Shown here: piece by piece, positions 6,506 to 35,670 of the stretch | Layout: every line of letters begins with the position of its first letter | Numbering within the stretch: position 1 is the stretch's first letter | Source of the DNA: an uncultured Isosphaeraceae bacterium | GTDB lineage: Bacteria; Planctomycetota; Planctomycetia; Isosphaerales; Isosphaeraceae | Direction: 5' to 3' | Assembly: GCA_945957605.1 (NCBI GenBank) | Contig: CAMFLR010000004.1 | Coordinates: 310,001-374,000, forward strand | DNA length: 64,000 nucleotides | Notes under the pieces: model-generated | The model's database searches: none | The model's input: only the letters and a program-made list of their open reading frames with translations | Told to the model about the DNA's origin: nothing | Position numbers and translations under genes: made by a program

Positions 6506-8773
6506 TTGGGCGTTGCGGACGACCGGTTCCTGCAAATGTTCTTCGAGGAAGCGCGCGAGCTGCTCCTCAGCCTTGAAGAAGGGCTGATGGAACTCGAACG
6601 CCGCCAAGGAGATCGCGCGCACCTCGACAAAACGTTCCGCGCTGCCCACAGCATCAAGGGTGCCGCCGCGATGGTCGGCCTCGGCGCGCTCGCCGAGTTT
6701 ACCCACGGCATCGAAGCAGTCCTCGATCGCATCCGGTCCGGAACGCTCGCCGTCGACTCCGACGTCATCAGCACGTTGCTCGACGCCCGCGATCATCTTT
6801 CGGTCGCCGTCGAGGCAGAAGCCGCGCGGTCACCAATCCCTTCTCCAGTCGAATTAAACCGACGCCTCACCGCTCTGCTGCGCGATCCCGCAGCCGCGCC
6901 TCCACCACCTCCGCCTGCCGCGCCTGCTGCTACACCCAAGAAAATCGAGCTCGATCTGCCGGCGGCGGAGATGCCTGCCGCCAAGCCGCCGCGTAAAAAG
7001 GCGGAGCGGAAGCCTCGTGCGAGTTCGCGTTCAAAAAAGCAGACGCCGGAATTGCCGCTGCCGGATTTCGGTGGGACGCGCTCGCCCGGCGTTGACTACT
7101 ACCGCGTCACGCTCAAGCCCGGCGCGGACATTCTCAAGCGCGGCGTGAACTTGCTGGGCGTGCTCGACGAGCTCCGCGATCTGGGGCCGACTCGGATCGC
7201 GACCGAACCTGGGCTGGTGCCTACGCTCGAGGAAATGGATCCCGAGCGGTGCTACCTGGCCTGGACCATCGAAGTCGAGTCGAACGAGCCCCGAGAAAGG
7301 CTCGACGACGTCTTCCTGTTCATCGCCGACGATAGCACGATCACGATCGAACGACATTCGACGAGCGAGCCGGCTGTCGAAACCGAGGTCGTTATCGAGC
7401 CCGCGCCCGAGCCGGCACCTGCCAAGCTCGCACCTACAGCGGCAAAAACACCGCCCGCTGCGGCGCCATTTCCTGTCGAAGAAAAGCCGGCTTCCAAGCC
7501 GCCCGAAATTGCCCCACCGGCCACGGCCCCCGCCGATAGCGGCAAGCAGCCCCCTCCGCGTCCACCCGTGAAGCAGGCCGCAGCCAGCCCGCCGCCGCCT
7601 CCGAAAGTCCCTGCGCGTATTCGCGTTGACGCTGGACAGCTCGACGACCTCGTCGGCCTCGCGGGCGAACTCGCCGTAATTTCGGATAACCTGCAAGGGT
7701 TGCGTGAGGTTGACGCGAATCAGCCTTGGGTGGTCACACTCGAAGCCCTCGATCGCGTCAGCCGGCTCATTCGCGACACCACGCTCGAACTCCGGATGGT
7801 GCCGGTTGAGGAGTTGTTCTCGCGCTTCCCGCGCGTCGTCCGCGACCTTGCCGACCGATTCGGCAAGGAGATCGAGCTGCGGGTGATCGGCCAGGAAACG
7901 CGGCTCGACCGGACGATTGTCGAGCGTCTCTCCGACCCGATGATCCACCTGATTCGAAACGCCGTCGACCACGCCCTCGAAACGCCTGAAGAACGGATGG
8001 CTGCCGGAAAGCCGCGTGCTGGACGAATTACGCTCTGGGCCGGTCATGAAGGCGACCGTGTTGCCTTGAGAATTCAGGACGACGGCCGGGGGCTCGACCG
8101 CGACCGGATCGTCAAACGCGGAATTGCTCGCGGACTTGTGCCGGTTGGAACGTCAGTCGACGACCCGCGTGTCGATACGCTCATTTTCGAGCCTGGATTC
8201 TCGACGCGCGATGAGGTGAGTGAACTTTCGGGACGAGGTGTCGGACTCGACGTCGTGCGCGACGCTGTGCGCGGCTTGCGAGGTAGCCTGGCGGTTGAAA
8301 GCCAGCCAGGCAAGGGGACATCGTTCATCTTCCGGCTGCCGCTCACGCTCGCGCTGATCGACGGTCTGCTCGTCGAGACGGGCGGCAATCGCTACGTTGT
8401 CCCTCTAGCGCAGGTCGAAGAGTGCGTGGCGCTCAACGGGACCAATCCCGCGCTCTCACGCGGCCGGCCATGTGTGGCGATTCGCGGCGAGCTTGTTCCG
8501 CTCGTTCAGCTTCGCGAACTCTTCCATGCCGAAGGGGCGCGGCCTAGCCGACAGGAATTGTTGCTCACACGACATGCGGGGCAACGTGTAGGCGTTGCAG
8601 TTGATCGACTTTTAGGACGTGTTCAAGCGGTGATACAAGCGCTTGGCGAAGGGTTAGGCAATCTCAATCGGTTTTCCGGCGCCACGATCCTGGGCGACGG
8701 CTCTGTTTCCTTGATCCTGGATCTGGCGGCGCTGGTGGCCGAGTCACGAGCCGCCGACAACCATGCCCACTAA
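6506..8773 (+). CDS. cheA: Chemotaxis-type histidine kinase CheA
   Basis: This is the central kinase of the chemosensory array (755 residues). Its order of parts is: HPt domain with phosphorylated His48 ([13 protein letters not shown]); a Pro/Ala/Lys-rich linker (about 130-190); a small module starting [12 protein letters not shown] (about 195-285); a second Pro/Ala linker; the dimerisation domain (about 370-435); an HATPase with N box [12 protein letters not shown] and G boxes DDGRGLD and GRGVGLDVV; and a C-terminal CheW-like domain. The start is TTG 6506, with GAGGT 8 bases upstream. The long proline-rich linkers are typical of CheA, where they tether mobile domains. It leads the block MCP-CheW-CheR-CheB. 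Confidence 0.96.
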
Positions 8774-8805
8774 CTTACCACCGGCGTGACGTCGGAGGCC
8801 ATTCG

Positions 8806-10692
8806 ATGAACATGACTCTCAGCAGAAAAATGACGCTCGCCTTCGTGGCGTTCGGCATCTTGCCGGCACTGGCGGTCGCTCTCGTCAACGTCATTAGCGT
8901 GCAGAGCCTGAAGGAGTGGCGTTCGAGTTCGCTGAGACGAGCCGCGGCGGCTGGCGCCGAGATTCTCGACCGCCAGTTCTACAAGAACGGCGCAGAGAAG
9001 CAGAATCCGGTACTGGCGTGGGACGACAACAAGCCCAAGGACGCGATTGTTGGGTTACTCGACAACCTCGTTCGCGACTATGACTTTCCCACAGCAGATG
9101 TCTACCTGGTTGCGAGCACCGCTGGATCGTCGTCCGGAAAGTCTGCGAATCAGGTCGTGTTCGCCAGACGCGAGCTGCATGGAGCAGCCAACGCGAATAG
9201 TGAGAAAATCCCGGGTGTGCTGTCAAAGGCCCAGGTCGAGCATAACGATTCGACTCCTTCGATCCTGAAGCAAGCCACGGCCGGATCAGGAGCTGCCGGC
9301 GTTCGCACGACTGTTGACGACGACAGCAATTCGACCGTTTTGGTTGCGTTCGCACCGCTCGACATGCAGGATCCCGCCGGATTGAAACCCGCGCTTTTCG
9401 TGGTGGCTCGACAGTCCGATGTTTACGCGCAGATCAGCAATCTACAGCTCACCACCGCCGTCATGTTCGCAGTTTTCGCGGCCATCACGATTTTCCTGGG
9501 CAACTGGCTCGGCAAGACGTTCGTGAGCCCCGTCAAGCACATCATGGAAATCACCCGGTCGCTCCAGGCCGGACACCTCGACCAGAAGACCGAAGTTGAG
9601 CGCAGCGACGAACTCGGCAAACTTGGCGAGCAGGTGAACTCCGTCATCACCAAGCTTGGCGACGTCGTCGGCCAGATTCGCGTCGCGACGGGCTCGGTTT
9701 CGACCGCCAGCCAGCAATTGAACGCCAGCGCTCAAGGCCTGTCGCAAGGCGCAACCGAGCAGGCCGGAACCTTGCAGGAAATCGCTTCGAGTCTGCAGTC
9801 GGTCGATGCCTCGGTCGCCCGTAACGCTCAGCATGCGAAGGAAACCGCAAAGACCGCCAACATGGCGAGCGCCCAGGCAGAAAAGGGCGGCGAGGCGGTG
9901 CAAGAAACCGTCAGCGCGATGCGGCAGATCGCACAAAAGATTACGATCGTCGAAGACATCGCCTATCAGACGAATTTGCTCGCACTAAACGCCGCAATCG
10001 AAGCGGCCCGCGCAGGAACTCAGGGCAAGGGGTTCGCGGTGGTTGCTGGCGAAGTGCGTAAGCTTGCCGAACGCAGTCAAGCAGCCGCGCAGCAGATCGG
10101 CGAGTTGGCGAAGTCGAGCGTCGACGTTGCCGAAAATGCCGGCCAACTGCTCGAACGGATCGTGCCGATGATTCGCGACACCTCGAGCCTCGTGCAGGAA
10201 ATCGCGGCGGCGTCGCAGGAACAAATGGCGGCGATCCGCGAGATCAATGTCGGCGTCAGCCAGCTTGACGAAGTGGTTCAACAGAACGCGGCAGCGAGCC
10301 ACGAACTCGCGGCGACTTCGGGCGACCTTGCCTCACAGTCGGCCACGCTGCAAGAACTCGTTGGCTTCTTCCAGTTCAGCGGTAGTGATGGTCATCGACA
10401 CGTGGTGACTCACCACGTTGTGGCGCCTCCGCCGATTGTGCCGGCAACGCCTCGTGCTCGCCGCTTGCCTCCTCCTCCGCCGCCGCCGATGCGTCCTCAA
10501 GGCCCTCCGCACGACGATCTCGGTGGTAGCGGCCATGGTGCGCCACTGAGCCCCAGGCCGTCGTCTCCTCCCTCGCACTCGGGTGGGCACGGCGGGGGAC
10601 ACGGTGGTCACCATGGCGGGCACGGTGGTCAGCATGGGGGCGGGGGAATTGTGGTAAATCTTGACGGCGACGACGATTTCGAACGGTTCTAA
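8806..10692 (+). CDS. Methyl-accepting chemotaxis protein with a His/Gly-rich C-terminal tail
   Basis: This is a 628-residue membrane chemoreceptor. Transmembrane helix 1 spans residues 9-31. A periplasmic sensor of about 180 residues follows, then TM2 (about 208-232), a HAMP domain, and a methyl-accepting coiled-coil with the conserved hairpin tip [19 protein letters not shown]. After the signalling domain comes an unusual tail of about 100 residues: a polyproline stretch, then repeated H-G-G units (for example [16 protein letters not shown]). There is no CheR-docking pentapeptide of the NWETF type; the protein ends DDDFERF. The tail could bind Ni, Zn or Cu. The sensor domain is not a family I can name. 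It lies 32 bases downstream of cheA. Confidence 0.95.
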
Positions 10693-10734
10693 CCGGGCCC
10701 GGCTGTGTAAGTTAACCGCTTTGTGGAGGCGGAC

Positions 10735-11238
10735 ATGATTGAGCTGCCAGGCGAAACCGAGCACGAAATTGAACGCACGCAGTCATACGTTATTTTCCAA
10801 CTCGGCGGAGAAGGTTATGCTCTTGAGGTCTCTCGGGTCCAAGAAGTGATCGATCTCGGTCATTTAACGCAGGTTCCAGGCGGTCCACGCTGGCTTAAAG
10901 GGGTGATCAACCTCCGAGGTCATGTCGTACCCGTTTGGGATTTGCGCATCCCGTTCGACCTGGCGGTGGATGCAAAACTCGGCCGCTCGCCGTGTGTTCT
11001 GATGGTGGAAACTCAACTCGCGAACGATATTCGGGTAAATGGCCTCCTGGTGGACCGCGTGTCTGACGTACTCGACTTCAATCCCGACGACGTGCAACCC
11101 GCACCTCCCCTCGGACTGGGAAAAGCGTCGCCCTTTGTACGGGGGTTGATCCGTCACCAGGAGCGGTTCTTGCTCGTACTCGACGTTGATCGCGTTTTCA
11201 CGGCTCTGGGAAGTTCGTTGACTGCTGGGGGAATCTGA
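10735..11238 (+). CDS. cheW: Chemotaxis coupling protein CheW
   Basis: This 167-residue single CheW domain (SH3-like) links the receptor to CheA. Typical segments are YVIFQLGGEGYALEVSRVQE, a GVINLRGHVVPVWDL signature and GLLVDRVSDVLDF. ATG 10735 is chosen because GGAGG (10725-10729) lies 5 bases upstream; a GTG at 10723 overlaps that Shine-Dalgarno. The stop is one base from the cheR start, indicating translational coupling. Confidence 0.95.
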   Translation: MIELPGETEHEIERTQSYVIFQLGGEGYALEVSRVQEVIDLGHLTQVPGGPRWLKGVINLRGHVVPVWDLRIPFDLAVDAKLGRSPCVLMVETQLANDIRVNGLLVDRVSDVLDFNPDDVQPAPPLGLGKASPFVRGLIRHQERFLLVLDVDRVFTALGSSLTAGGI

Positions 11239-11239
11239 A

Positions 11240-12109
11240 GTGCCGACGGACCCGCTCACTCCCGTGCCGCCCCCTCCGGCCGAGCCCGAGCCATGGTCGG
11301 AAGCCGACTTCACGCCGATTGTTTCCTTTCTGCGCAATCAGATCGGAATCTCGTTGGAGTCGCACCGCATGGGCTTGCTTCAGGCACGCCTGCGGTCGCG
11401 TCTACAGGCTCGAGGTTACCCCAGCTTCACCAGGTTCAACGAACGCGTTCTCAAGATCGATCCCAAGGGCCCCGGGATGCAGCTTCTGATTGACCTTAGC
11501 ACGGTCAATCACACCGCTTTTTTTCGCGAACCGGCCCACTTCACATTCATGGCCGAGCGGCTCGCTCCGCTTTTCAAAGACCCCAACGCAGGACCGATTC
11601 GGATCTGGTCGGCCGGTTGCTCGACCGGACAAGAACCATACTCAATGGCGATGGTGCTTGCAGAGTCGATCCCGAACTTCAACCCAACACGTGTGGAAAT
11701 CTGGGCGACCGACCTTTCGCTCGAAGTCGTCAAAGCCGCTGCGCGCGCTATTTATGGCACGAGAGAAGTGGCAGGCGTCTCGGCGTCTCGCCTAAAGCGG
11801 TTTTTCCTTCGGGGCAAAGGTCCGCGCGACGGTTCGTTCCGGATCGTGCCTGAAGTTCGTGACCTCGTGAAGTTCCGGCACCTCGACCTTCGCAGTTCGA
11901 GCTGGCCTTTGCCGAACGATTTTCACGTGATTTTCTGTCGAAACGTTTCGATTTACTTTGCTGAAGAAGAGCGGATGAATTTGCTCAACCGCCTGGCGCT
12001 CTACCTGCGCCCGAACGGTTGGCTCGCGATGGGGAATGGCGAAATCCTGCCGGCAGTGCCCGCCTCGCTCCGTAAGGTCGCGCCGTCGATCTATCGCAAA
12101 GAGGTGTAA
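11240..12109 (+). CDS. cheR: Chemoreceptor glutamate methyltransferase CheR
   Basis: The 289-residue enzyme transfers methyl groups from S-adenosylmethionine to receptor glutamates for adaptation. It has an N-terminal helical CheR domain (about residues 20-80) and a Rossmann methyltransferase with IWSAGCSTGQEPYSMAM as the SAM-binding motif. The segment FHVIFCRNVSIYF corresponds to the family CRNVLIYF motif. It starts at GTG 11240, immediately after the cheW stop. No TPR extension is present. Because the receptor lacks a C-terminal pentapeptide, CheR probably methylates without tethering. Confidence 0.96.
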   Translation: MPTDPLTPVPPPPAEPEPWSEADFTPIVSFLRNQIGISLESHRMGLLQARLRSRLQARGYPSFTRFNERVLKIDPKGPGMQLLIDLSTVNHTAFFREPAHFTFMAERLAPLFKDPNAGPIRIWSAGCSTGQEPYSMAMVLAESIPNFNPTRVEIWATDLSLEVVKAAARAIYGTREVAGVSASRLKRFFLRGKGPRDGSFRIVPEVRDLVKFRHLDLRSSSWPLPNDFHVIFCRNVSIYFAEEERMNLLNRLALYLRPNGWLAMGNGEILPAVPASLRKVAPSIYRKEV

Positions 12110-12114
12110 CGCGC

Positions 12115-13224
12115 ATGCCACTTGAGCGAAACGCGGGCGGAGCGAATCCCGGACAGCAAATCGAGGTTCTTGTCGTCGACGACAGTGCCGTCGTCCGGCA
12201 AAGCCTCAAGTCGATTATCGAATCCGACCCACGATTTCGCGTGACCATCGCTGCCGATCCCTACGAGGCGGTGGCGATCCTCAGCAAAAGCGTCCCCGGC
12301 GTAATCGTGCTCGACGTCGAAATGCCTCGCATGGACGGGCTAACGTTCCTGCGCAAGCTGATGGCGCAGCACCCGCTTCCCGTCGTGATGTGCACGAGCA
12401 TCGCCGACCGCGCCCTTTCAGCGCTCGAAATCGGCGCGATCGAAGTCATTCCCAAGCCCGACTGGCGTGACCCGGAAAAGATGGCGGCGTGGGGAGACGA
12501 TTTCCTGGAGAGCGTGCGCAATGCGGCTGGCGCTGCGAGAATTGCGGCACCAACAACCACGGCAAGTCCATCAAATCCCGCCGATGCAGTGCTGGCGCGA
12601 CGTGCCTACGTTCCGCGCGGTGGCCCTTCGGAACCGATCATTGCCATCGGCATTAGCACCGGCGGCGTTCAAACGATGCCGCAGGTGCTCAGCGGCTTTC
12701 CGCGAGATGCGCCCGGCATTTTGATCGTTCAACATATGCCGAAGGACTTCATTTCAGATTACGCCAAGCGGCTGAACGCGAATCCTCAGGTTCAGGTTGA
12801 AGTCGCCGTGGCAAAACAGCATGAGCCGCTACGTCCCGGCCGCGCGCTGGTTATCCCGGGCGAAATTCACGGATTGGTTCGCCGTACGGGCGCAGGGTAT
12901 CGCGTCGAACTCATCGAAGGGCCGCAGGTCAATCGCTTTCGACCGAGCGTCGACGTGCTCTTCCGTTCCTTCGCGCAGGCGGCTGGCCCGTATGCGGCCG
13001 GCATCATCTGCACGGGAATGGGAGACGACGGCGCCCGCGGCTTGCTCGAAATGCGCGAGGCCGGCGCTATGACTGTGGCTCAGGATAAGGCGACGAGCAT
13101 CGTCTTCGGCATGCCGCGTGAGGCTATTAGCCGTGGCGCGGCTAAGTTTGTTCATCCGGTCGATCGGATCGCACCGGCCGTCATGGCCTGGGTAGCGGGC
13201 ATGGACCCGGGAAGTCGGCACTGA
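12115..13224 (+). CDS. cheB: Chemotaxis methylesterase/glutamine deamidase CheB
   Basis: The 369-residue protein removes receptor methyl groups and is activated by CheA phosphorylation. The receiver domain has Asp22-Asp23 and acceptor Asp67 (IVLDVEMPRMDG). A linker runs from about 140 to 170. The esterase domain carries the catalytic triad Ser181 (GISTGGVQ), His207 (IVQHMP) and Asp304 (GMGDDGARGL). It ends the chemosensory block; a strong hairpin at 13230-13264 follows the stop codon. Confidence 0.97.
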   Translation: MPLERNAGGANPGQQIEVLVVDDSAVVRQSLKSIIESDPRFRVTIAADPYEAVAILSKSVPGVIVLDVEMPRMDGLTFLRKLMAQHPLPVVMCTSIADRALSALEIGAIEVIPKPDWRDPEKMAAWGDDFLESVRNAAGAARIAAPTTTASPSNPADAVLARRAYVPRGGPSEPIIAIGISTGGVQTMPQVLSGFPRDAPGILIVQHMPKDFISDYAKRLNANPQVQVEVAVAKQHEPLRPGRALVIPGEIHGLVRRTGAGYRVELIEGPQVNRFRPSVDVLFRSFAQAAGPYAAGIICTGMGDDGARGLLEMREAGAMTVAQDKATSIVFGMPREAISRGAAKFVHPVDRIAPAVMAWVAGMDPGSRH

Positions 13225-14591: not shown

Positions 14592-17510
14592 TCAGACCGA
14601 GTTGACACGCTCAGCCAGCAGCTCGATCGGGTGTTTTGGGGTTAACCCTGTTAACCCATGAATCTGCGATCGGCATGAGAATCCAGGCGCTGCGAGAGTT
14701 GCCGAAGGATCTGCCTTCATCGCCGGAATAATCACCCGTTCCGCCAGCGCTGTGCTCAGTTCGTAATGCCCATGTTCATATCCAAATGACCCGGCCATAC
14801 CGCAACAACCAGAATCAAGTTCCTTCACTTCAACGCCTGCCAACCGCTTGAGCGCGGCGAGTGTGTCACTCGTGCCGACAAGTGCTTTCTGCTGACAGTG
14901 GCCGTGAAGCAGCACGCGTTCCGACTGTTCGCGAACGGGCAAATGCGGCACGCGTTCGGGATCGGCGATGAACCGATCTACGAGCTGCGACATCGACGCG
15001 ACTGTCTCCGCATTGGCGCCCAGGCGAAGGTCGCGATACTCGTCAACGAATGTCAGAATGCAACTGGGTTCGAGGCCGAGAATCGGCACGCCAGCACGCG
15101 CAGGCCCTGCAAGTTTTGCGACGTTCTCACTCGCCAGTGCACGCCCGAGATCGAGCAGGCCCTTCGACATCGCCGGCCGGCCGCAACACTTGAGGCCCGC
15201 GAGTTCGACCCGATATCCAGCAGCTTCGAGAACGCGAACGGCGGCCTGTCCAATATTGGGATTGTTATATGTTGTAAAGCAATCATCGAGAAGAATCACG
15301 CGACCGCGCTCACCGGCGCGCGCGTCGACCGCATGCTTGCGAAACCAGGTCCGAAAGCTCCGAGGAGCGAACAAAGGCAAAGTTCTGCGGCGATCGACGC
15401 CTGCGAGCTTTTCGAGCAACCACTTCATTTCAGGACGATTGAGCGTCCAGTTCGCGAGCGGAGCCATCGCCGAACCAAGCGGGTTGAGACGATAGATATA
15501 GCTCATCAAAAGCGGACCGAGCGGAATCGGTTTTCCGCGATAGCTCTGGTAGAGCACCTCGGCCTTGAGTTTGGCCATATCAACATTTGATGGGCACTCG
15601 GTCTTGCACGCCTTGCACTGAAGGCAGAGGTCGAGCGCATCGTGAAGCGTTGGATTGTCGAGACCTTCGCCGCCGCCAATTGAGCCGGCCATGACGAGTC
15701 GCAAGACATTGGCACGGCCCCGCGTGGTGTGCTCTTCATCGCGCGTAATCATGTAGCTGGGGCACATCGTGCCGCCGCCCTCTTTGCGGCACGCCCCCAC
15801 ACCTGAACACATCTCGGTTGCTCGCGCGAATCCGCCCTGACTCGAAAAATCGAGGATCGTCTCTTCGGGTTCGTTCGCGTGATAGTCCGGGCTAATCCGC
15901 CAGTTCTCGTCGATCGGCTGAGTCGCGATCACCTTGCCGGGATTGAGCCGATGCGTCGGGTCGAACGCCTGCTTCACCTCTTCAAACGCGTGGTAAAGCT
16001 TGTCGCCAAACAGCTTGCGATTCCAGAGGCTGCGCGCGAGCCCATCACCATGCTCGCCACTCATCGCGCCGCCGAATTCGACGACGAGATCAGAAACTTG
16101 GCGTGCGATATCTTTGAGTGCTTCAACGCCGCCGGGTGTTTTGACGTTGAGCACCGGGCGAATGTGCAAGCAGCCGACATCGGCATGGCCATAACACGCG
16201 CCCTGCGTCCCGTGTCGCTCCATGATCTTCACGAAGCGATCGTAAAACGCCCACAACTTCTCGGGCGCGACGGCCGTATCTTCGACGAACGCAACCGGCT
16301 TGGCATCGCCGACCATTCCCATGAGAAGCGACAAGCCGGCCTTGCGCACTTTCCAGAAGTCGTCCTTCGCGGCAGCCGAAAGCGACTTGCGAACGCCAAG
16401 CACTCCCGGCGCGCCTTCAAACTTAGCCGCGAGCTCATTCGCGCGATCGGCAAGTTCAGCCTCGGAGTTCGCATAAAACTGCGCCGCCAGCACAGCGGCA
16501 GGACGGCCGGACGTGAAGTCGAGCCGTTTCGACAACTCCGGCTGCTTCGCGGCGAGATCGAGGATCATGCGGTCGAGCATTTCAACCGCAACAGGCCCCG
16601 TCGCGACGATTTCGCCCAGTCGCTCGAGCGCAGCGGGAATCGTCGCAAATGAGAGAATCACAAGCCCTTGCGCAGGCGGGATCGGCACGACTTTAAGATC
16701 AGCACCTGTGACGATTCCGAGCGATCCTTCAGCGCCGACGAGCAATCGCGCCAGGTTGAAGTTCCACTCCTCGGTTGGCCAGCCAACCGGCCGAACGGGC
16801 AAGCCGGGAACAAACTCATCAAGGTTGTATCCGCTCACCCGGCGCAAGATGTGGGGAAATCGCGCCGCGATCTCTGAGCGATTGGCCTCGACGATCTCGC
16901 GCACGCGACGATGAAGTTGTGCCGCGCGATCGCTTCCGCGACAAACGGCATCGAGCTCGCTCGGTGAAACTGGCCCGAATTTGGCCGTTGTGCCATCATC
17001 GAGAACCACATCGAGCGCATGGACGTGATCAACCACCTTACCATAGCGCAGCGAGCGAGCGCCGGCCGAGTTGTTACCAATCATCCCACCGAGTGTTGCG
17101 CGATCGCTCGTCGAGACGTCGGGGCCGTACATCAGACCGAACGAGCGGAGATGGGCGTTGAGACGGTCGAGCACGACTCCCGGCTCGACGCGCACGGTCA
17201 TCCGGTCGCGATCGACGACTCCGATTCGGTTGAGGTACTTCGAAAAGTCAATAACGATCGCTTCGCCGATCGTCTGACCCGAAAGACTTGTCGCCCCCCC
17301 GCGAGGCAGAATCGGCACGCCCTCTTCGGCGGCGATTCGTGCGGCAGTGGCGACGTCGGCCACGGTTCGCGGAATCACGACGCCGATCGGCTCGATCTGG
17401 TAGAGGCTGGCGTCGGTCGCGTACAGCCAACGAGACCCTTCGTCGAATCGAATCTCAGCGCCCGTTTCATTGGCCAGGCGGTCGCGCAGGCGAGGGGTCG
17501 TCGTGACCAT
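14592..17510 (-). CDS. Large FAD/Fe-S D-2-hydroxyacid dehydrogenase (GlcD-GlcF fusion, YdiJ/Dld-like)
   Basis: The 972-residue single chain joins what are separate GlcD and GlcF proteins elsewhere. An N-terminal FAD-binding type 4 (vanillyl-alcohol-oxidase) domain has PILPRGGATSLSGQTIG and TLGGMIGNNSAGARSLRYG. An FAD-oxidase C-terminal domain runs to about residue 535. Two ferredoxin-type clusters follow (GACRKEGGGTMCP and CLQCKACKTECPSN). Two cysteine-rich CCG domains finish it (GLKCCGRPAMSKG and DSGCCGMAGSFGYE). Related enzymes oxidise D-lactate, D-2-hydroxyglutarate or glycolate and pass electrons to the quinone pool or a flavoprotein; the substrate here cannot be read. It is divergent from the NADH-input module at 17850, a suggestive redox neighbourhood. 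Confidence 0.93.
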   Translation of the reverse strand: MVTTTPRLRDRLANETGAEIRFDEGSRWLYATDASLYQIEPIGVVIPRTVADVATAARIAAEEGVPILPRGGATSLSGQTIGEAIVIDFSKYLNRIGVVDRDRMTVRVEPGVVLDRLNAHLRSFGLMYGPDVSTSDRATLGGMIGNNSAGARSLRYGKVVDHVHALDVVLDDGTTAKFGPVSPSELDAVCRGSDRAAQLHRRVREIVEANRSEIAARFPHILRRVSGYNLDEFVPGLPVRPVGWPTEEWNFNLARLLVGAEGSLGIVTGADLKVVPIPPAQGLVILSFATIPAALERLGEIVATGPVAVEMLDRMILDLAAKQPELSKRLDFTSGRPAAVLAAQFYANSEAELADRANELAAKFEGAPGVLGVRKSLSAAAKDDFWKVRKAGLSLLMGMVGDAKPVAFVEDTAVAPEKLWAFYDRFVKIMERHGTQGACYGHADVGCLHIRPVLNVKTPGGVEALKDIARQVSDLVVEFGGAMSGEHGDGLARSLWNRKLFGDKLYHAFEEVKQAFDPTHRLNPGKVIATQPIDENWRISPDYHANEPEETILDFSSQGGFARATEMCSGVGACRKEGGGTMCPSYMITRDEEHTTRGRANVLRLVMAGSIGGGEGLDNPTLHDALDLCLQCKACKTECPSNVDMAKLKAEVLYQSYRGKPIPLGPLLMSYIYRLNPLGSAMAPLANWTLNRPEMKWLLEKLAGVDRRRTLPLFAPRSFRTWFRKHAVDARAGERGRVILLDDCFTTYNNPNIGQAAVRVLEAAGYRVELAGLKCCGRPAMSKGLLDLGRALASENVAKLAGPARAGVPILGLEPSCILTFVDEYRDLRLGANAETVASMSQLVDRFIADPERVPHLPVREQSERVLLHGHCQQKALVGTSDTLAALKRLAGVEVKELDSGCCGMAGSFGYEHGHYELSTALAERVIIPAMKADPSATLAAPGFSCRSQIHGLTGLTPKHPIELLAERVNSV

Positions 17511-17778: not shown

Positions 17779-17849
17779 CTTTGAATCAAGTCGATATCTG
17801 GACGGCCGGACGGGTATCATGCGCCCGCCCTTACCTCGGTGAAAAAGTT

Positions 17850-19547
17850 ATGATTGTCCAGCGGTTAGGCGAGATCCAGCACAAGTTTGGCTATCTCCCC
17901 GATGACGAGCTGAAGGCCCTTTCGAAGCGTATCGGTGAACCGCTGCACCGGTTGCATGAAGTGGCCAGCTTTTTCCCGCACTTCCGGCTCAAGCCCGGTC
18001 CCAAAGTGAGCATCCACGTTTGCCGCGACATGGCCTGCCACCTTGCCGGCGCGCCAGCGCTCCATTCGGCCATGGAAGGCGTGGCGAGCGAGTTCGGCGG
18101 CAAGCAGCAGGTCGAGGTAAAAGGCGTGTCGTGCCTGGGTCAGTGCGATCACGCACCTGCTGCCTGCGTCAACGATTACGTCTACTGGGATAAGTCGCCG
18201 CAGCAGTTGCGCAGCTATGTGGAGCTTGGGCTCTCTAACGAACCCTTGCCACGCCAGCACGCCGGTGAAGACCGCCTCCCTTGGAAAATCGACCCTTATT
18301 TTGGCCGCGAAGTCACCTACGACGCGATTAAGCGCTTTGTCGATACTCGCGACGCCGACGGCATCATCAAGTCGCTCGAAACCTCGACGCTTAAAGGAAT
18401 GGGCGGCGCCCGCTTCCCAACCTTCCGCAAGTGGGCAAGCGTCCGGGGCGCTCCGAGCCCGGTAAAATATGCAGTCGTCAACGGTGACGAAAGCGAACCC
18501 GGCACGTTCAAGGATCGTGAGCTTCTTCGTCGCGCACCGCACCTTGTGGTCGAAGGCGTGATCCTTTCGGGACTAGTCACCGGTGCCAAGCAAGGCTGGA
18601 TCTACATTCGCCACGAATTCGAGGAAGAAATCGAAGCCGTGCGTCGAGAAATCCAGCGAGCGGTCGCACATGGTGCTTGCGGTTCAAAGATTTATGGCTC
18701 GGAGCTCGAGTTCGATCTCGACGTCTTCGTCAGCCCTGGCGGCTACATTTGCGGTGAGGAATCGGCCCTTATCGAGGCAATGGAAGACAAGCGTGCCGAA
18801 CCGCGCAACAAGCCACCATTCATGGTCTATAGCGGCCTCTACGGCCGGCCGACTGTGATGAACAACGTCGAAACGATGAGCTGGGTGCCGTCCATTTTGC
18901 TTAACGGTGCCGAATGGTATCGCGACGCTGGCGTGAACGGATCGACCGGGATGTGGTTCATTTCGGTGAGCGGAGACGTCAATCGGCCGGGTGTCTACGA
19001 GATCCCCTTCGGCCTGACCGTCGGCGAGATGATTGATGACCTCTGCCAGGGGATGAAGCCAGGCAAGACCTTCAAGGCGATTGCTCCATCCGGTCCGTCC
19101 GGCGGAGTGCTCCCCCACTTCATCCCACGCGACAGACTTCCGGAGCGGTTCGCTTCGACGTTGCCTGCGGATGCAACAGGATACGACGTCCGCCAGCTTC
19201 CGCTCGATCCCGCCAAGCTGGGACAGCTCGACAACATGCTCGGCGCGGCGATTGTGATCGTCGGCAGCGGGGCGAACATGGTCGATTTTGCGCGAAACCT
19301 TGTCGAGTTTTACGCGAACGAGTCGTGCGGTAAGTGCGTGCCATGCCGGCTTGGGTCGCATAAACTGGCCGAGATGATCGCCACGATGATGAAGGGTAAT
19401 TATCCGCGTTCTAATCTGAAGACAATCGACGAGCTCGCACGAACGATGATGATTACATCGATTTGCGGCCTCGGAATGGTTGCGCCCAACCCGATCGCGA
19501 CCGTGATGAAGTATTTTCCTGAGGAAATCGAGCCGTATCTCGCCTGA
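17850..19547 (+). CDS. NuoE-NuoF fusion: NADH-binding diaphorase subunit
   Basis: This 565-residue protein oxidises NADH with FMN and feeds Fe-S clusters, as in complex I, NAD-reducing hydrogenases and formate dehydrogenases. The N-terminal NuoE-like thioredoxin fold has the [2Fe-2S] ligands Cys58, Cys63, Cys95 and Cys99 (CRDMAC and SCLGQC). The NuoF part has a GMGGARFPTFRKW flavin/NADH loop (glycine-rich loop slightly altered), VNGDESEPGTFKDRELL, and the [4Fe-4S] motif SCGKCVPCRLG. ATG 17850 has GGTGA 7 bases upstream and fits the promoter; a TTG at 17781 is the alternative. The next gene, 47 bases on, supplies the Fe-S chain. No membrane Nuo subunits are here, so it is not respiratory complex I itself. 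Confidence 0.93.
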   Translation: MIVQRLGEIQHKFGYLPDDELKALSKRIGEPLHRLHEVASFFPHFRLKPGPKVSIHVCRDMACHLAGAPALHSAMEGVASEFGGKQQVEVKGVSCLGQCDHAPAACVNDYVYWDKSPQQLRSYVELGLSNEPLPRQHAGEDRLPWKIDPYFGREVTYDAIKRFVDTRDADGIIKSLETSTLKGMGGARFPTFRKWASVRGAPSPVKYAVVNGDESEPGTFKDRELLRRAPHLVVEGVILSGLVTGAKQGWIYIRHEFEEEIEAVRREIQRAVAHGACGSKIYGSELEFDLDVFVSPGGYICGEESALIEAMEDKRAEPRNKPPFMVYSGLYGRPTVMNNVETMSWVPSILLNGAEWYRDAGVNGSTGMWFISVSGDVNRPGVYEIPFGLTVGEMIDDLCQGMKPGKTFKAIAPSGPSGGVLPHFIPRDRLPERFASTLPADATGYDVRQLPLDPAKLGQLDNMLGAAIVIVGSGANMVDFARNLVEFYANESCGKCVPCRLGSHKLAEMIATMMKGNYPRSNLKTIDELARTMMITSICGLGMVAPNPIATVMKYFPEEIEPYLA

Positions 19548-19594
19548 GCGATGCGGATTCAGGCCTGACCACGCGAAGCGGAGCGCCTCTGGCA

Positions 19595-22009
19595 ATGCAA
19601 ATCACCGACGACCTCGTACAGTTTGTTTACGAAGGCCGGACGCTCGCCGTGCCGACGCCCCTGCGCGACCGGCTCAATCAGCCGATGATCACCATCAAAA
19701 TCGATGGTGAATCGGTGGAAGTGCCGCAGGCCACGCTGAAGAAAGACGAAAACGGTCGGTATATCAAAGACGCCGACGGCAACCCCGTCCTCCGCGAAAC
19801 CACCATCTACGACGCTGCGCTTTTGCTCGCGGAAAAGACCGGGCATAACCCGATTCCTTTGCTCTGCCACCGCGAACATTTGACGCCGGTCGCGGTCTGC
19901 CGCGTTTGTGTTGTCGACATCGACCCCAACGGCCGCGCCAAGCTCGCGCCGGCCTGTCAGCGGCAGGTCGAGAAGGGGATGGAAGTTCGCACCAAGGACA
20001 CGAGCGAACGTGTGCGCGAGGCGGTTGCCTTGCTCACCGAAATGCTCATGGCCGACCATCCCAGCCCGTGCGCGAAGCACGCTGCGAGCAAGGATTGCGA
20101 ACTCGAACTGCTTGCCGAGGAAATGAACCGCACCACGTCGCGCTTCCCCAAGCGTGCAACCGGCGGCGAAGACCGCCCGCGCGACGACTCGTCGGTCGTG
20201 ATTGCGGTCGATCACTCGGCCTGCATCATGTGCGATCGTTGCGTCCGCGGTTGCAACGAGATCCGCAACAATCAAGTCATCGGCCGCATGAACAAGGGGT
20301 ACACAGCGCGGATTGCGTTCGACCTCAACGAGAACATGGGCCTGTCGAACTGCGTGTCGTGCGGCGAGTGCATGGTTTCTTGCCCGACCGGTGCGCTCAC
20401 AAATCGTGCGACGGTTTTCGATTCGATCAAGGACAAGAAGGCGTTCAAGGGATCCGAGGTTGTCCACGCCGACGATCTGGTCAAACTGCCGCTCTTCGAC
20501 GGCGTTTCGCACGCCTTCTTGCGATTCAACGAAGGGGCCGTTGTCCGCCGCCACTTCAAGAACGGCGAGATCATTTGCCGCGAAGGCGATTTCGGCTCGA
20601 CCGCCTATTACATCGAAGACGGCAAGGTTGATATCTACCTCGCCACGTCGTTCAACCACGTCAAGAGCCGCAAAGGCAAGGGCGCTGGGTTGCTCGGCGG
20701 CCTGATCAACCGCTTCCGCTCCGAACTGGTGACGCGTAAGCAAGAGCCGCGTGAAGAAGAAAATTACGATAAATACATTCATATCGATGCGCCCGTGTCG
20801 CTCGAATATGAAAAGCCGATCGCCGAACTCGTTAAAGGCGATATCTTCGGCGAAATGACCTGCATGAACAGCTACCCACGCTCTGCCACAGTTCGCGCCA
20901 AGGGCGACGTGACCGTGCTGGAAATGCAGCGAAACGTACTCTACATCCTCCAGCGCAGCAAAAAATCGAAGAAGATGCTCGACGACCGCTACCGGGCGCG
21001 AGCGATCGACAACCATCTTCGCAGCGTCGACATCTTCGCGGATGTCGCCGAGTCTCCCGCCGAGTTTGAGCGGTTCGTCACGCGGTTGCGTCCACAGGTT
21101 GATCTGTACCGTTACAACAACGGCGACACGATCTTCAACCAAGGGGACCTCGCCGACGCCTTCTATCTCGTGCGTTCCGGCTTTGTCAAAGTGACGCAAA
21201 AGCACATGGGTGCCGACCACGTGCTTAACTACGTCGGTCCCGGAGGGTACATCGGCGAAATTGGCCTTTTGACCGGTTTCCCCGAGATTCAAAAGACCGG
21301 TGTTGCCGCCGGCCGTCGTACCGCGACATGTACCGCGCTTGACCACGTCGACCTCGTGCGCATCTCGGCCGAGGCATTCCAAGGTCTGCTCGACGACTTC
21401 CCGGCGTTCCGCAACAAGGTCATCGCAACCGCGTCGAAGCGCCTCGAGGACAACGCCCGAGCACTTCACGAACTCGAGAATTCGTCGCTCGCACAATTCC
21501 TCGACCAGGGGCTGATGAACGCGACGAGCCTGCTTGTGCTCGACCTCGAAAAATGCACCCGTTGCGACGAGTGCACCAAGGCCTGTTCCGACGCCCACGA
21601 TGGCGTGACCCGTCTCATCCGCGAAGGGTTGCGGTACGACAAGTTCCTGGTCGCCAGCAGTTGCCGGTCGTGCCTCGACCCGTACTGTCTCGTAGGTTGC
21701 CCGGTGGGTGCAATTGGCCGTTCCAAGTCGCGTGAAATCATCATCAAGGATACCTGCATCGGCTGCGGCAAGTGCGCTGACAATTGCCCGTATGGCAATA
21801 TCAACATGCACTCGCTGCCTGCCCAGATGAAGGCCGATCCAGCGCATCCTGACAAATTGATTCCGGTCATCCAGCAAAAAGCGACGTCGTGCGACCTATG
21901 CCGCGAGCTCGACGGTCAGCCCAGTTGCGTCTATGCCTGCCCGCACGACGCAGCGCACCGAATGACCGGCCACGAACTGCTCGACCTCGTCCGGCTCGGC
22001 CCAGGCTGA
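19595..22009 (+). CDS. NuoG-like Fe-S protein with two cyclic-nucleotide-binding domains and a ferredoxin tail
   Basis: I know of no standard complex with this 804-residue architecture. In order: a [2Fe-2S] domain (Cys91, 102, 105, 121); a His-Cys cluster segment where the usual H-x3-C-x2-C-x5-C reads H155, C159, H162, C168; two [4Fe-4S] motifs (CIMCDRCVRGC and CVSCGECMVSC); a first cNMP-binding domain (about 310-450) with FGEMTCMNSYPRSATV; a second (about 475-610) with GEIGLLTG and RRTATC; and a four-cluster HybA/NrfC-like ferredoxin domain (CTRCDECTKAC, CRSCLDPYCLVGC, CIGCGKCADNC, CDLCRELDGQPSC with CPHDAA). Electrons from the NuoEF protein could flow through it under nucleotide control. 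No catalytic (molybdopterin or hydrogenase) domain is present, so the acceptor is unknown. Confidence 0.9.
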   Translation: MQITDDLVQFVYEGRTLAVPTPLRDRLNQPMITIKIDGESVEVPQATLKKDENGRYIKDADGNPVLRETTIYDAALLLAEKTGHNPIPLLCHREHLTPVAVCRVCVVDIDPNGRAKLAPACQRQVEKGMEVRTKDTSERVREAVALLTEMLMADHPSPCAKHAASKDCELELLAEEMNRTTSRFPKRATGGEDRPRDDSSVVIAVDHSACIMCDRCVRGCNEIRNNQVIGRMNKGYTARIAFDLNENMGLSNCVSCGECMVSCPTGALTNRATVFDSIKDKKAFKGSEVVHADDLVKLPLFDGVSHAFLRFNEGAVVRRHFKNGEIICREGDFGSTAYYIEDGKVDIYLATSFNHVKSRKGKGAGLLGGLINRFRSELVTRKQEPREEENYDKYIHIDAPVSLEYEKPIAELVKGDIFGEMTCMNSYPRSATVRAKGDVTVLEMQRNVLYILQRSKKSKKMLDDRYRARAIDNHLRSVDIFADVAESPAEFERFVTRLRPQVDLYRYNNGDTIFNQGDLADAFYLVRSGFVKVTQKHMGADHVLNYVGPGGYIGEIGLLTGFPEIQKTGVAAGRRTATCTALDHVDLVRISAEAFQGLLDDFPAFRNKVIATASKRLEDNARALHELENSSLAQFLDQGLMNATSLLVLDLEKCTRCDECTKACSDAHDGVTRLIREGLRYDKFLVASSCRSCLDPYCLVGCPVGAIGRSKSREIIIKDTCIGCGKCADNCPYGNINMHSLPAQMKADPAHPDKLIPVIQQKATSCDLCRELDGQPSCVYACPHDAAHRMTGHELLDLVRLGPG

Positions 22010-22139: not shown

Positions 22140-22769
22140 ATGGAGTTACACGAAGCCCTGGCGCAGATTGCCGAAATTCGCCGGACGATGGCGAGAACCC
22201 AGGTTTTCCGGGGTTATCGCGCCGTTCCAGTGGCCTTTTCGGGGCTGCTCGCATGCGGAGCGTCGATTTACCAGGCCTTCTGGATCCGTGATCCGGTCGG
22301 GCAGCTTGATAGCTACCTGGCGCTCTGGGTATCGGCAGCGTTTGCGAGTGCGTTGGCGGCCGGTGTCGGCATGATCTGGCGAGCGAAGCACGCGCCTTTG
22401 GGTTCGTGGTCACGCGAGATCACGATCCTGGCGGTTGAGCAGTTTGCGCCTTGCGTTGTCGCGGGCGGGTTGTTGACGATCGTCGTCGCCCGTTCTGCTG
22501 AGTCGTCGCTCTGGATGCTACCGGGACTCTGGTCCATTCTCTTTAGCCTCGGGGTCTTCGCCTCGCGCAGGCTATTGCCGCGGCCGATCACAGCGGTGGC
22601 GGTGTTTTACCTTGTGGCTGGGTTGCTCTGCCTGATCGTTGCCCGCGGGCCCCACGCGTTGTCACCCTGGGCGATGGGTATTCCCTTCGGCATTGGCCAG
22701 TTCTTTGCGGCGGCCGTGCTTTACGGAACCTTGGAACGTCATCATGGCGATCAAGAAACCAGCATCTGA
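22140..22769 (+). CDS. Hypothetical polytopic membrane protein
   Basis: The 209-residue product has a short amphipathic N-terminus (LAQIAEIRRTMART) and about six predicted transmembrane helices. I do not recognise a family or any catalytic residue. GAGG lies at 22132-22135, 4 bases before the ATG. Its last 26 bases overlap the downstream winged-helix regulator gene, so the two are translationally coupled. The arrangement resembles the common pairing of a small membrane protein with a DNA-binding regulator, and the regulator may control this gene. Confidence 0.75.
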   Translation: MELHEALAQIAEIRRTMARTQVFRGYRAVPVAFSGLLACGASIYQAFWIRDPVGQLDSYLALWVSAAFASALAAGVGMIWRAKHAPLGSWSREITILAVEQFAPCVVAGGLLTIVVARSAESSLWMLPGLWSILFSLGVFASRRLLPRPITAVAVFYLVAGLLCLIVARGPHALSPWAMGIPFGIGQFFAAAVLYGTLERHHGDQETSI

Positions 22770-23157
22770 CGCGAAAGGCCAGGAGCCCCACTCCGGCCGG
22801 TTCGCATACGACGGCCTGGAACGCACCTTTCACGAAAAGGCGCGGCTCGGCATCCTCACGTCGCTGGTCGCACATCCCAAGGGGTTGATCTTTTCCGACC
22901 TCAAGGACCTCTGTGCGCTCACCGACGGCAACCTGAGCCGTCACCTGCAGGTGTTGCACGAAGCCGGCCTCGTCGAGGTCTGGAAGGGATACCAGCACAA
23001 CCGGCCTCAGACTCTTTGCCGTCTGACAGAAGATGGTCGTACGCGATTCCTCGAATACATCACCGTGCTCGAAAACGTCGTCGGCGACGCTCTCGCCGCG
23101 TCAAAGTCGGAAACTCCGTCCCTTGGTGCGCCTGCTGATGGCTGGTCTCCGGCGTAA
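22744..23157 (+). CDS. Winged-helix transcriptional regulator
   Basis: The 137-residue protein carries one winged helix-turn-helix. RLGILTSLVAHPKGLIFSDL forms the first helices, TDGNLSRHLQVLHEAGLVEV the recognition helix, and KGYQHNRPQTLCRLTEDGR the wing. It matches the MarR/ArsR-like HTH_34 type often encoded beside a membrane protein. The start ATG 22744 lies inside the upstream gene; an earlier in-frame GTG/ATG reading gives a Trp/Pro-rich leader without sense. A strong intrinsic terminator overlaps its stop codon. Ligand and targets are unknown. Confidence 0.85.
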   Translation: MAIKKPASDAKGQEPHSGRFAYDGLERTFHEKARLGILTSLVAHPKGLIFSDLKDLCALTDGNLSRHLQVLHEAGLVEVWKGYQHNRPQTLCRLTEDGRTRFLEYITVLENVVGDALAASKSETPSLGAPADGWSPA

Positions 23158-30628: not shown

Positions 30629-31609
30629 TCAAAGACGCCGAGCATAATTCGCCGCGCCGATGAGCGGGGCCTTGGGATTGATCGCGACTGCGACCCGCAT
30701 TCCTTCCAGCACGGGTTGAAGCCGTCCCTTCGCCAGGAACGACTTCATGAATCCGCCGCGTTTGAGCACCTTCATGATCTTCGGTGCCACGCCACCGCCA
30801 ACGTACACCGAGCGCGCCACACACTTGAGCGCCAGATTGCCCGCCTCGGCGCCGTAGATCGACGCGAAGAGTTCGAGCGTCGCCGTGCAAAGCGGGTCGT
30901 GCTCGTCGATGCCAAACTTCGTGATTGTTGCGTTCTTGTCGCCGGTCTCAAGTGCCTGGGCGACTTCGGGCGACTCGGGATAATGGCCACGATCGCGCAA
31001 GAACGAGTAGACGTGATGAAATCCTGGTCCTGAAATCACGCGCTCATAGCTAACGTGCGGACCAAACTTCTCGCGGCTATATTGAACGAGTTCGTCTTCA
31101 AGTGGATTCTGAGGCGCGAGGTCGCAGTGGCCGCCTTCCGACGCCACTGGATGAAAATGCTCACCATCGTAGTAGAGGAACGCTTCGCCAAGGCCGGTCC
31201 CCGCAGCGATAACGGCGACGTTGCCATCATGATGCGGTTCGACGCCTGCGTTGAGCACCTCCATCTCGTCGGGCGTGAGGAAGAGCATGCCGTAGGCGGC
31301 GGCTTCGAGGTCGTTGAGCAGCTTGACGCGGCGGGTTTTGAGATGCGCGGCGAGCTTCGTTTCGATGAGGTGCCAGGGAAGGTTCGTGGTCCGGCATTCG
31401 CCGTCGATCACCGGTCCGGCGACGCCGAAACAGGCGGAACTGAGCGACTCGCACGGGTGTGTGGCGGCGAACTGGTCGAGAATCGCCTCGAACGTCGCGG
31501 AGCCGCGGCTCGGGAACGTTTCTTCACCAACTTGATTCAGGCCATTTTCAGTCGGCTCGAACAACGCGAGCACGGTTTTCGTCCCACCAATGTCGCCCGC
31601 CAGGAACAT
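30629..31609 (-). CDS. glk: Glucokinase
   Basis: The 326-residue enzyme phosphorylates glucose with ATP. It belongs to the bacterial Glk family (not ROK): the ATP-binding start is LAGDIGGTKTVLALFEP, followed by FGVAGPVIDGECRTTNLPW, KLLNDLEAAAYG with the catalytic Asp, AAGTGLGEAFL and SEGGHCDLAP with sugar-binding Glu/His. The C-terminal half has YVGGGVAPKI. GAGGAT lies 7 bases upstream. Together with zwf, gnd and tkt it commits glucose to the oxidative pentose phosphate pathway. Confidence 0.95.
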   Translation of the reverse strand: MFLAGDIGGTKTVLALFEPTENGLNQVGEETFPSRGSATFEAILDQFAATHPCESLSSACFGVAGPVIDGECRTTNLPWHLIETKLAAHLKTRRVKLLNDLEAAAYGMLFLTPDEMEVLNAGVEPHHDGNVAVIAAGTGLGEAFLYYDGEHFHPVASEGGHCDLAPQNPLEDELVQYSREKFGPHVSYERVISGPGFHHVYSFLRDRGHYPESPEVAQALETGDKNATITKFGIDEHDPLCTATLELFASIYGAEAGNLALKCVARSVYVGGGVAPKIMKVLKRGGFMKSFLAKGRLQPVLEGMRVAVAINPKAPLIGAANYARRL

Positions 31610-31739
31610 GGGATAATCCTCAATCCGCAGTCAAAAGGGTAGGGGAACCGTTGTTGTTCGAGTAGCGTCCGGAGATAGCATAGCACGCAGGCAACGTGGC
31701 GATCGAGCATTCACACGCGCATCTACACGCCGTGATTTG

Positions 31740-32851
31740 TCAATGAATGCTCGCCTGAACCAGAACGTGCGCAGCCTTGACCATCTCGCGAAAAATGTTG
31801 TCGGGTTCGCGGTCGGAAAGCTGCTTCGCCACCATTTCCACGAGGCTTTGAGCCGGCTCCGAAAGCGTGCGAGGTTCTGCGCCCGCCTCTTCCGGCTGCA
31901 CGGCCAGTCTGCCGTCGCCCGTCGAGGTAAAGTCGAGCGAGCCGAGTTCACCGCACGCCGCACAGGCGATTTTCACGCGACGAATTTCTGCAGCGCCTTC
32001 TTCAAGGCGATCCAACCTCAGTCGCACCGTGCCGTGCTCGGGCCGCTCGAATTGAAAGCCGATCTCACTGCCTTTTTTGAACTTCGTCGCCTGGATTTTC
32101 CAGTCGAGCCGGGATGCGAGCCACGCGCCGATTTGCCACGCCTGTGTCACCGCGTGCGGACCGTGCTCGATGAGCACTTCCGAAATGGTATCGAGCGCAC
32201 CGGGATGGACCGCCGGTGAAAGCTCCTGAGAGATCAGCCGCAGCCAGTATTTGAGACGGCGCCAGTTAAGGTCGGACGCGACGCGCCAGCGACCACCTTC
32301 GCCTTCGCGCTCGAAGCGGCTCAGCCACGCTGAAGTTGCCGCCATACCGCGATGCGGGTCGGCCCAGCCGAGGCTGTCGTAAATCAGTTGCTGAGCTGAT
32401 TCGCAGAGATCGTCGAGCACAGGACCAGCAAACGGCGGCGGCGTGCGCGACGCCCACCAGACGTTCGTCGGTAGATCGCCAATTAAGAGCGCGCGAACCG
32501 CGAATGGCAAATGATCGGCGCCGTGCGGACCGCCGCGCAACGTGACTTGCTCGGCCGCCATGCGCGAACCTGCCCCCGCACGCCGCACTTGAACAGTCGC
32601 TCGCACGTCATTCGAGGATGACGAATCGTTGGCAACGAGCAAAAACACACGTGCCGGATGAACCGACACGATCTGCGGAATCGACGCCTCAACTTCCTGG
32701 AGATGCGATTCGTCGTCGCAATAGATGACAAGATTGGACATCCGAGCGCGATACATCGGCGCGGACGTCGGATCGTGCAGTTCGCGCAGCCCTTCGGTCA
32801 ACTGGCGATCGACGGCCGAAAGCGGTACATCAACCGGCGCGGTGGCGTCGA

Positions 32852-32855
<4 letters not shown>
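31740..32855 (-). CDS. opcA: Glucose-6-phosphate dehydrogenase assembly protein OpcA-like
   Basis: OpcA is an accessory subunit that activates or assembles Zwf in cyanobacteria and actinobacteria. This 371-residue protein has the family-like block NLVIYCDDESHLQEVEASIPQ, SVHPARVFLLV, VTLRGGPHGADHLPFAVRAL, LIGDLPTNVWWASRTPP and LSWRRL-type elements (DLNWRRLKYW). The start is ATG 32855, overlapping the zwf stop as ATGA, with GGAGG 5 bases upstream; a GTG at 32867 would overlap that Shine-Dalgarno. The tight coupling to zwf fits a stoichiometric partner. Confidence 0.9.
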
Positions 32856-34474
<1,619 letters not shown>

Positions 34475-34581
34475 GGCGAGACTCCGTCGCGTTGACGTTG
34501 TAGGAGCCAGCACGGGACGGACGAGAATCCGCCCGCCCCGCGTGATGAACTCTATCGCGGATTGCGGCCCGCGCCGAGACT

Positions 34582-35568
34582 TTAGTTCCCGGCCGGACGC
34601 TCAACGTGTCCGCCAAACTTGTGCCGCATCGCCGACAAAACCTTCTCGGCGAAGGTGTGCTGCTGGCGCGAACGGAAGCGGGCGTAGAGCGAAGCCGACA
34701 GCGTTTCGCAAGGAACCGCTTCTTCGATGGCCGCCATGATCGTCCAGCGCCCTTCGCCCGAATCCTGCACGAAACCGGTGTAGTTATCAAGCGAGGGATT
34801 CTCGATCAGCGCCATCGCCGTCAGGTCGAGCAACCACGAGCCGACGACGCTACCACGCCGCCATACTTCGGCGATTTCGGGCAGGTCGAACGTGTAACGA
34901 TGTTCTTTGGCGACTTCTTCCGAATTCGCCGAGCGGAAGATGTCGAACCCTTCGGCATAAGCCTGCATCAGGCCGTATTCGATGCCGTTGTGCACCATCT
35001 TGACGAAGTGCCCAGCGCCCGAAGGGCCGCAGTGCAAGTAACCCTGTTCGGCCGTGCCACCCTTGTCGGCAGGACGACCGGGAGTACGTCCCACGTCACC
35101 CATGCCAGGGGCCAACGTGCTGAGGATCGGGTCGATGCGCTTCACAGCGTCATCGGGACCGCCGATCATCATGCAATAGCCGCGTTCGATGCCCCAGATA
35201 CCACCCGAGGTTCCGACATCGACGTAATTGATGCCCTTGCTCTTGAGCTGACCAGCGCGACGGACGTCATCCTTGAAGTAGGAATTACCGCCGTCGATGA
35301 TCGTGTCGCCCGATTCCATCAGTGCTGCGAGGCCGTTAACCGTGTCTTCGGTCGGAGCGCCGCAGGGCACCATAACCCACGCGGCACGCGGCTTGGTAAG
35401 CAGCTTGACGAACTCTTCGAGCGTGGTCGCGCCTTTCGCCCCTTCAGCAACGAGGCCCTTAACCGCCTCGGCGCTTCGGTCAAAAACGACGCACTCGTGG
35501 CCCGCTTTCATCAAGCGGCGGACCATGTTGCCGCCCATACGTCCAAGGCCGATCATTCCTAGTTGCAC
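34582..35568 (-). CDS. gnd: 6-phosphogluconate dehydrogenase, decarboxylating (short GndA/YqeC type)
   Basis: The 328-residue protein is the shorter, NAD-preferring form. It has the Rossmann motif [21 protein letters not shown], the substrate loop [20 protein letters not shown], and the catalytic [20 protein letters not shown] (Lys and Asn). The C-terminal helical region is about 140 residues, shorter than in classic Gnd. GTG 35568 is the chosen start because AGAGGAG lies 7 bases upstream. It makes ribulose-5-phosphate for the transketolase encoded just upstream. No separate 6-phosphogluconolactonase gene is seen. Confidence 0.95.
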
Positions 35569-35619
35569 TTGCGACTCTCCTCTGCAGAGGTGATGAGACG
35601 TGACGTGGTGGGGGAATCG

Positions 35620-35648: not shown

Positions 35649-35670
35649 GACGCGTCGAAGCGCTTCTGAA

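Follow-up and report, generated by a model that had tools for sequence, protein, structure and literature searches.

The window analysed here, a stretch of 64,000 nucleotides (positions 310,001 to 374,000 of contig CAMFLR010000004.1) from an uncultured Isosphaeraceae bacterium of the phylum Planctomycetota, carries two plus-strand genes, 47 bp apart, that encode an NADH diaphorase and a long iron–sulfur (Fe–S) protein with two cyclic-nucleotide-binding (CNB) domains. A preliminary description made from the sequence alone had singled out this pair as an NADH-input Fe–S relay with cyclic-nucleotide sensing. Followed across genomes, the two genes belong to a widespread and, it appears, undescribed bacterial electron-transfer machine.

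The first gene (17850..19547) encodes a NuoE–NuoF fusion (NuoEF), recognized by its Pfam and NCBIfam matches, its relatives in the PDB and its cluster cysteines as an NADH diaphorase with flavin mononucleotide (FMN), one [2Fe–2S] cluster and one N3-type [4Fe–4S] cluster. The reading frame first opens at a TTG at 17781; the ATG at 17850 is the likely start because it gives 565 amino acids, compared with 564 in the closest relative. Pfam reported 2Fe-2S_thioredx, Complex1_51K, SLBB and NADH_4Fe-4S, and NCBIfam agreed. Counted from ATG 17850, the cysteines of the NuoE [2Fe–2S] site (58, 63, 95 and 99) and of the NuoF N3-type site (493, 496, 499 and 539) are present and, with the FMN/NADH fold, place the protein among NuoEF/HoxF-type NADH diaphorases. 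Its PDB relatives are formate dehydrogenase beta, aligned nearly end to end, HydB and NuoF.

The second gene (19595..22009) encodes an 804-residue chain in which a NuoG/HoxU-like Fe–S arm is followed by two CNB domains (CNB-A and CNB-B) and a HybA-like ferredoxin with four [4Fe–4S] clusters; Pfam matched Fer2_4, Fer4_9, cNMP_binding and Fer4 clusters in the chain. Residue conservation was counted over 87 aligned full-length members, mostly from Planctomycetota and Acidobacteriota. In the NuoG-like arm, the [2Fe–2S] domain (Fer2_4; residues 69–134, 19799..19996) has its four ligands C91, C102, C105 and C121 conserved in 87/87, as are all eight cysteines of the two [4Fe–4S] clusters (Fer4_9; residues 209–267, 20219..20395). 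The His/Cys 'N5' site (H155, C159, H162 and C168) is degenerate, C159 and C168 being kept in just 58/87, and therefore one [2Fe–2S] and two [4Fe–4S] are the secure clusters of this arm. The ferredoxin domain (residues 641–790, 21515..21964), identified by Fer4 models and by HycB/HydN-like relatives, has 16 essentially invariant cysteines (at 654–664, 690–702, 721–731 and 766–782) in four CxxCxxCxxxC-type motifs, as in HybA/HycB-type four-cluster ferredoxins, and resembles HydN, HycB3 and DmsB in PDB and NCBIfam comparisons. Pfam and NCBIfam matches and cysteine conservation thus bear out the domain order and gene positions of the preliminary description; the one correction to its NuoG-type clusters concerns the N5 site. 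Assignment to NuoG of complex I was rejected: although the arm matches, its N5 is degenerate, and a CNB–CNB–ferredoxin part stands where NuoG has its molybdopterin-type C-terminal domain. A complex I fragment was likewise rejected, since architecture and partners differ.

A scan of species-representative genomes returned 179 relatives, the best 80 of which were kept as loci; one of its six patterns was the CNB-A motif FGEMTCMN itself, which biases part of the retrieved set. These 80 loci, mainly in Planctomycetota and Acidobacteriota, mostly cover the chain of about 800 residues at 46–70% identity, and this conservation excludes a chance arrangement. The architecture is widespread: in an even sample of the window's own phylum, Planctomycetota, where the preliminary description had proposed a search, 27 of 392 genomes match the chain at E 1e-60 or better. 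Within the Isosphaeraceae, 20 of 45 genomes gave a first-pass match; one carrier, Tautonia sociabilis (locus L011, the same match as family genome G436), appears to belong to this family. A core form, made of the two CNB domains and the ferredoxin and lacking both the NuoG arm and NuoEF, was fetched with wide flanks at 16 loci. Among its 11 well-flanked loci, ten have a cytochrome b gene and nine a decahaem cytochrome gene, and some core chains (L103, L109) have an FHA domain instead. From the core-form loci and FHA fusions it follows that the constant unit is the CNB tandem with the ferredoxin, the b protein and the decahaem cytochrome, and that the input, of electrons or of signal, varies; the CNB domains are therefore a core part and not an accessory. 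Diverged core chains also lie between cytochrome genes at L161:3289-6711 (1,140 residues, genome G404) and L162:1902-5291 (1,129 residues, G431); in both, long insertions interrupt the CNB region as well as the ferredoxin domain.

The neighbours of the module were counted in the 48 full-length loci flanked on each side by 6 kb or more. NuoEF adjoins the chain on the same strand in all 48, a membrane protein of roughly 300–330 residues is present in 42, an N-terminally anchored decahaem cytochrome c in 42 and a tetrahaem cytochrome c in 38; less constant are a 9- to 10-haem LVIVD protein (c7; 14/48) with a partial ExtM match (E 3e-25) and an outer-membrane barrel (13/48). The preliminary description had expected a conserved third gene, and the cytochrome-b-like membrane protein, together with the decahaem cytochrome, fills that place. 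The membrane-protein and decahaem genes are neighbours on one strand in 90 of the 96 loci that hold the former, and the decahaem protein matches MtrC/C7-type models. In the five-helix membrane protein, His85, His99, His296 and His310 (numbering of L010) are invariant over 35 sequences and form pairs spaced by 14 in helices 3 and 5 (78–100 and 260–317) of a confident model. This pattern fits two haems b stacked across the membrane and provides the two histidine pairs of NOX/ferric-reductase-type transmembrane cytochromes b. The resemblance to SpNOX is suggestive only, its Z of 7.5 over 139 residues being one that generic helical matches also reach. Matches to the TorS and McpS sensor domains (Z 8–9) were set aside as probably generic helical matches, and no PDB sequence matched a profile of the b protein.

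With b and multihaem c cytochromes as constant partners, linear transmembrane transfer is indicated. These partners also bear on the proposal of electron bifurcation in the preliminary description. HydABC, Nfn-ABC and NiFe-HydABCSL, of which some bifurcate, do have subunits similar to the NuoEF and NuoG-like parts; against this, the neighbourhood clusters show no recurrent hydrogenase, Nfn-like protein or second flavin subunit, and the constant partners are cytochromes. We therefore consider a bifurcating or confurcating complex very improbable and dropped this part of the earlier proposal.

In the window's own genome the membrane-protein/decahaem pair is found 43 kb upstream of NuoEF (C4:281803-284485), and neither barrel nor 9- to 10-haem genes were recognized beside the window genes or this pair. 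A probable periplasmic partner, a tetrahaem, c554-like cytochrome c, is encoded in the window on the minus strand (37995..39386; four CxxCH motifs, Cytochrome_C554 match and homology to the tetrahaem cluster). Its gene adjoins a transketolase gene, a neighbourhood also found in L006 and L011. Gene linkage is thus loosened in this genome, and the parts are retained. Oxidative pentose phosphate genes (30629..39386; G6PDH, OpcA-type, 6PGDH and transketolase) stand beside the tetrahaem gene.

Co-occurrence was followed through the 45 family genomes, which are related and hence not independent. Each partner was found in 18 of the 20 first-pass carriers, compared with 4 of the 25 other genomes; counted by genus, again for first-pass carriers only, the association gave P values of 0.002 and 0.008. 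Four decahaem-bearing first-pass non-carriers turned out, with a relaxed core query, to hold a diverged CNB–ferredoxin core. When diverged cores are counted, the decahaem cytochrome occurs in 22 of 24 carriers and in none of 21 others, unlinked cases included, and the cytochrome b in 21 of 24 carriers and 1 of 21 others, with the relaxed query rerun on part of the non-carriers. The two carriers without partners are the incomplete genomes G429 (64% complete) and G407 (81% complete); in G405 both halves of the module are present, 1.67 Mb apart.

The CNB domains look competent to bind a cyclic nucleotide. The family match (cNMP_binding, E 3e-35) comes in three stretches that make up two domains. 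CNB-A (residues about 289–460, 20459..20974) is recognized by its conserved cassette residues, and its phosphate-binding cassette DIFGEMTCMNSYPRSATVRAK (20840..20902) retains G419, E420, R429 and A431 in 87/87, as the preliminary description had read it in the window. CNB-B (residues about 461–625, 20975..21469; cassette at 21242..21340) has E555 in 87/87 and R575 in 83/87. Both have the predicted fold and the cassette Glu and Arg that characterize the cNMP-binding family PF00027, and loss of binding residues in orthologues, which would have counted against sensing, was not seen for CNB-A among these sequences. The CNB-A Glu and Arg are also retained in the most distant core relatives, which were fetched by a whole-length search independent of the motif pattern. 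By sequence, the closest solved structures to the tandem are the regulatory tandems of PKG and PKA. In a structure model of the chain (pLDDT 76.5, pTM 0.69), the predicted CNB-B superposes on CNB-B of PKG II with cGMP (Z 19.3 over 145 residues), and the NuoG arm superposes on formate dehydrogenase alpha (Z 19.6). Two cysteines of CNB-A, Cys328 and Cys423, are conserved in 86/87 and 85/87, though no cluster is expected there; a redox role for them is possible.

A possible source for a ligand is also at hand. At 11 distinct loci, spread over both phyla, the fetched flanks contain class III cyclase genes, whose architectures are FHA-GAF, CHASE2 or short. The cyclase density of the window's genome (about ten class III genes in 8.8 Mb), taken as the only basis, gives a chance expectation of roughly 0.02–0.04 per locus. 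That genome also encodes, on a different contig, an orthologue (41% identity) of the cyclase type that neighbours the module. The module-adjacent enzymes have the metal-binding Asp and the N..R motif. L069 has the canonical base-selecting pair (K...D), and most Planctomycetota copies have it swapped (D...K), so that their product is uncertain; the swapped Lys/Asp pair was observed in L080, L023, L028, L059, L021 and L015 and at C7:112997-114754 of the window's genome.

On this evidence we think it fairly probable that the two window genes are the cytoplasmic half of an NADH-driven transmembrane electron line to multihaem cytochromes c, gated by a cyclic nucleotide. Several observations weigh against this account. 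The window genes lie apart from those for the cytochrome b and the decahaem protein. Foldseek gave the membrane protein no match below E 0.001, for which reason its haem content rests on the histidine pattern and the neighbours. Further, the CNB-B Glu is lost in L107–L109, three of the most distant relatives, and at most loci the fetched flanks contain no cyclase. The last two points would suit a line of the same composition in which the CNB domains are no ligand-operated gate and serve as spacers, dimerization platforms or constitutive ligand holders, and CNB folds that do not bind cyclic nucleotides are common in the wider family. A mere spacer, however, would have no need of a CNB-A cassette that is invariant across two phyla and in core-only relatives, nor would it account for cyclases of three architectures beside the module, and we regard a line without such a gate as rather unlikely. 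The earlier idea of an NADH-input relay with cyclic-nucleotide sensing is well supported, as judged from the domains, the invariant binding residues and the nearby cyclases, with ligand binding and gating as its conjectural parts.

In the gated line that we favour, NADH would be oxidized at the FMN of NuoEF, and electrons would run through the NuoEF clusters to the NuoG-like clusters and across the joint of two CNB domains to the HybA-like four-cluster ferredoxin. The steps from NADH up to the ferredoxin are those expected of the protein families; for complex assembly, docking on the b protein, haem loading, direction, ligand identity and gating, we infer the following. The ferredoxin would dock on the five-helix membrane protein, with two haems b held by the pairs His85/His99 and His296/His310, and electrons would pass from these haems to the anchored decahaem cytochrome, then to the tetrahaem cytochrome and, in some genomes, to a larger multihaem protein and an outer-membrane barrel. 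A cyclic nucleotide made by class III cyclases, often encoded nearby, would bind at CNB-A, and usually also at CNB-B, and alter the joint's geometry in such a way that the relay would conduct in one ligand state only. A gate would make sense because outward flow through the haems b without proton pumping would spend both NADH and membrane potential. The flow could also be reversed, as when cells take up electrons from their surroundings: periplasmic multihaem cytochromes would then reduce the b protein, and the ferredoxin would carry the electrons on to NAD+. Diaphorases and multihaem conduits can work both ways, and with a core form that lacks the NADH part the chain need not always start at NADH. 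Inward flow to NAD+, however, would have to climb in redox potential and run against a membrane potential that is negative inside, and beside the module no gene was recognized whose product would oxidize an external donor; this direction therefore seems improbable to us.

No description of this architecture was found in the searches made of the open-access literature or among the structures compared, in line with the preliminary claim of novelty, although each part has known counterparts. NuoEF, with its FMN and clusters, and the NuoG N-terminal arm, with its [2Fe–2S] and two [4Fe–4S], are like the diaphorase arms of NAD-dependent formate dehydrogenase, HoxEFU, HydABC and complex I (NuoEFG; 30–38% identity, and Z about 19 to formate dehydrogenase alpha). 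Unlike those enzymes, the module has no catalytic molybdenum/tungsten, hydrogenase or quinone module, and its chain has two CNB domains, a HybA-like ferredoxin and a degenerate N5. The tandem CNB domains and their FGE...PRSATV-type cassettes are shared with the PKA regulatory subunit, PKG and the CRP family, where the best PDB sequence and fold matches lie, whereas the output here is a redox relay rather than a kinase or DNA-binding domain, and CNB-A has an insertion of about 50 residues and the two conserved cysteines. The ferredoxin, with 16 Cys and four [4Fe–4S], is like HybA, HycB and HydN but is fused behind CNB domains and has a five-helix, dihaem-b-like membrane partner; no HybB/NrfD or DmsC gene was recognized as a conserved neighbour of the module. 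That partner shares the two histidine pairs and their placement with the NOX/SpNOX ferric reductase transmembrane domain and differs in having five rather than six helices and no fused flavin domain. In Ext conduits a single cluster encodes multihaem cytochromes, a barrel of the outer membrane and an inner-membrane b cytochrome, which is of the bc type and comes with a Rieske protein (PMC5877670). At some loci the module groups with components of these kinds, as in Ext and Mtr-type conduits, but its input is an NADH diaphorase with CNB domains, and only some of its loci have c7 and barrel genes.

Other genes near the pair were considered. A divergent FAD-linked oxidase/Fe–S protein (YdiJ/GlpC-like; 14592..17510) has an upstream region in common with NuoEF, an arrangement kept in L004. 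Neither this FAD/Fe–S dehydrogenase nor the membrane-protein and winged-helix genes at 22140..23157 were accepted as module parts, both sets recurring only in the closest relative (L004, genome G402). Upstream of the NADH genes lies a chemosensory cluster (6506..13224), in which a CheA-type kinase (Hpt-HATPase-CheW) is joined by further reading frames that resemble CheW and response regulators. Farther downstream, an FTR1-type iron permease fusion (43004..45244) is close to a di-haem oxidoreductase/peroxidase-like protein (46237..47460).

Cyclic nucleotides are known to influence the metabolism of bacteria chiefly by way of transcription factors such as CRP, and through a small number of enzymes such as acetyltransferases. 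We give about even chances to a broader class of respiratory-type chains under direct cyclic-nucleotide control, in which a PKG/PKA-like tandem would serve as the joint of an Fe–S relay and interchangeable inputs (the NADH arm, FHA or neither) would feed one cyclic-nucleotide-binding, ferredoxin and cytochrome core. If true, direct control of an electron-transfer chain would open a new way for a second messenger to act on redox flow. The two phyla in which the module occurs are large, live in soils and sediments and are poorly understood, and the module provides a testable account of how NADH electrons may reach multihaem cytochromes, and possibly the outside of the cell, in both.

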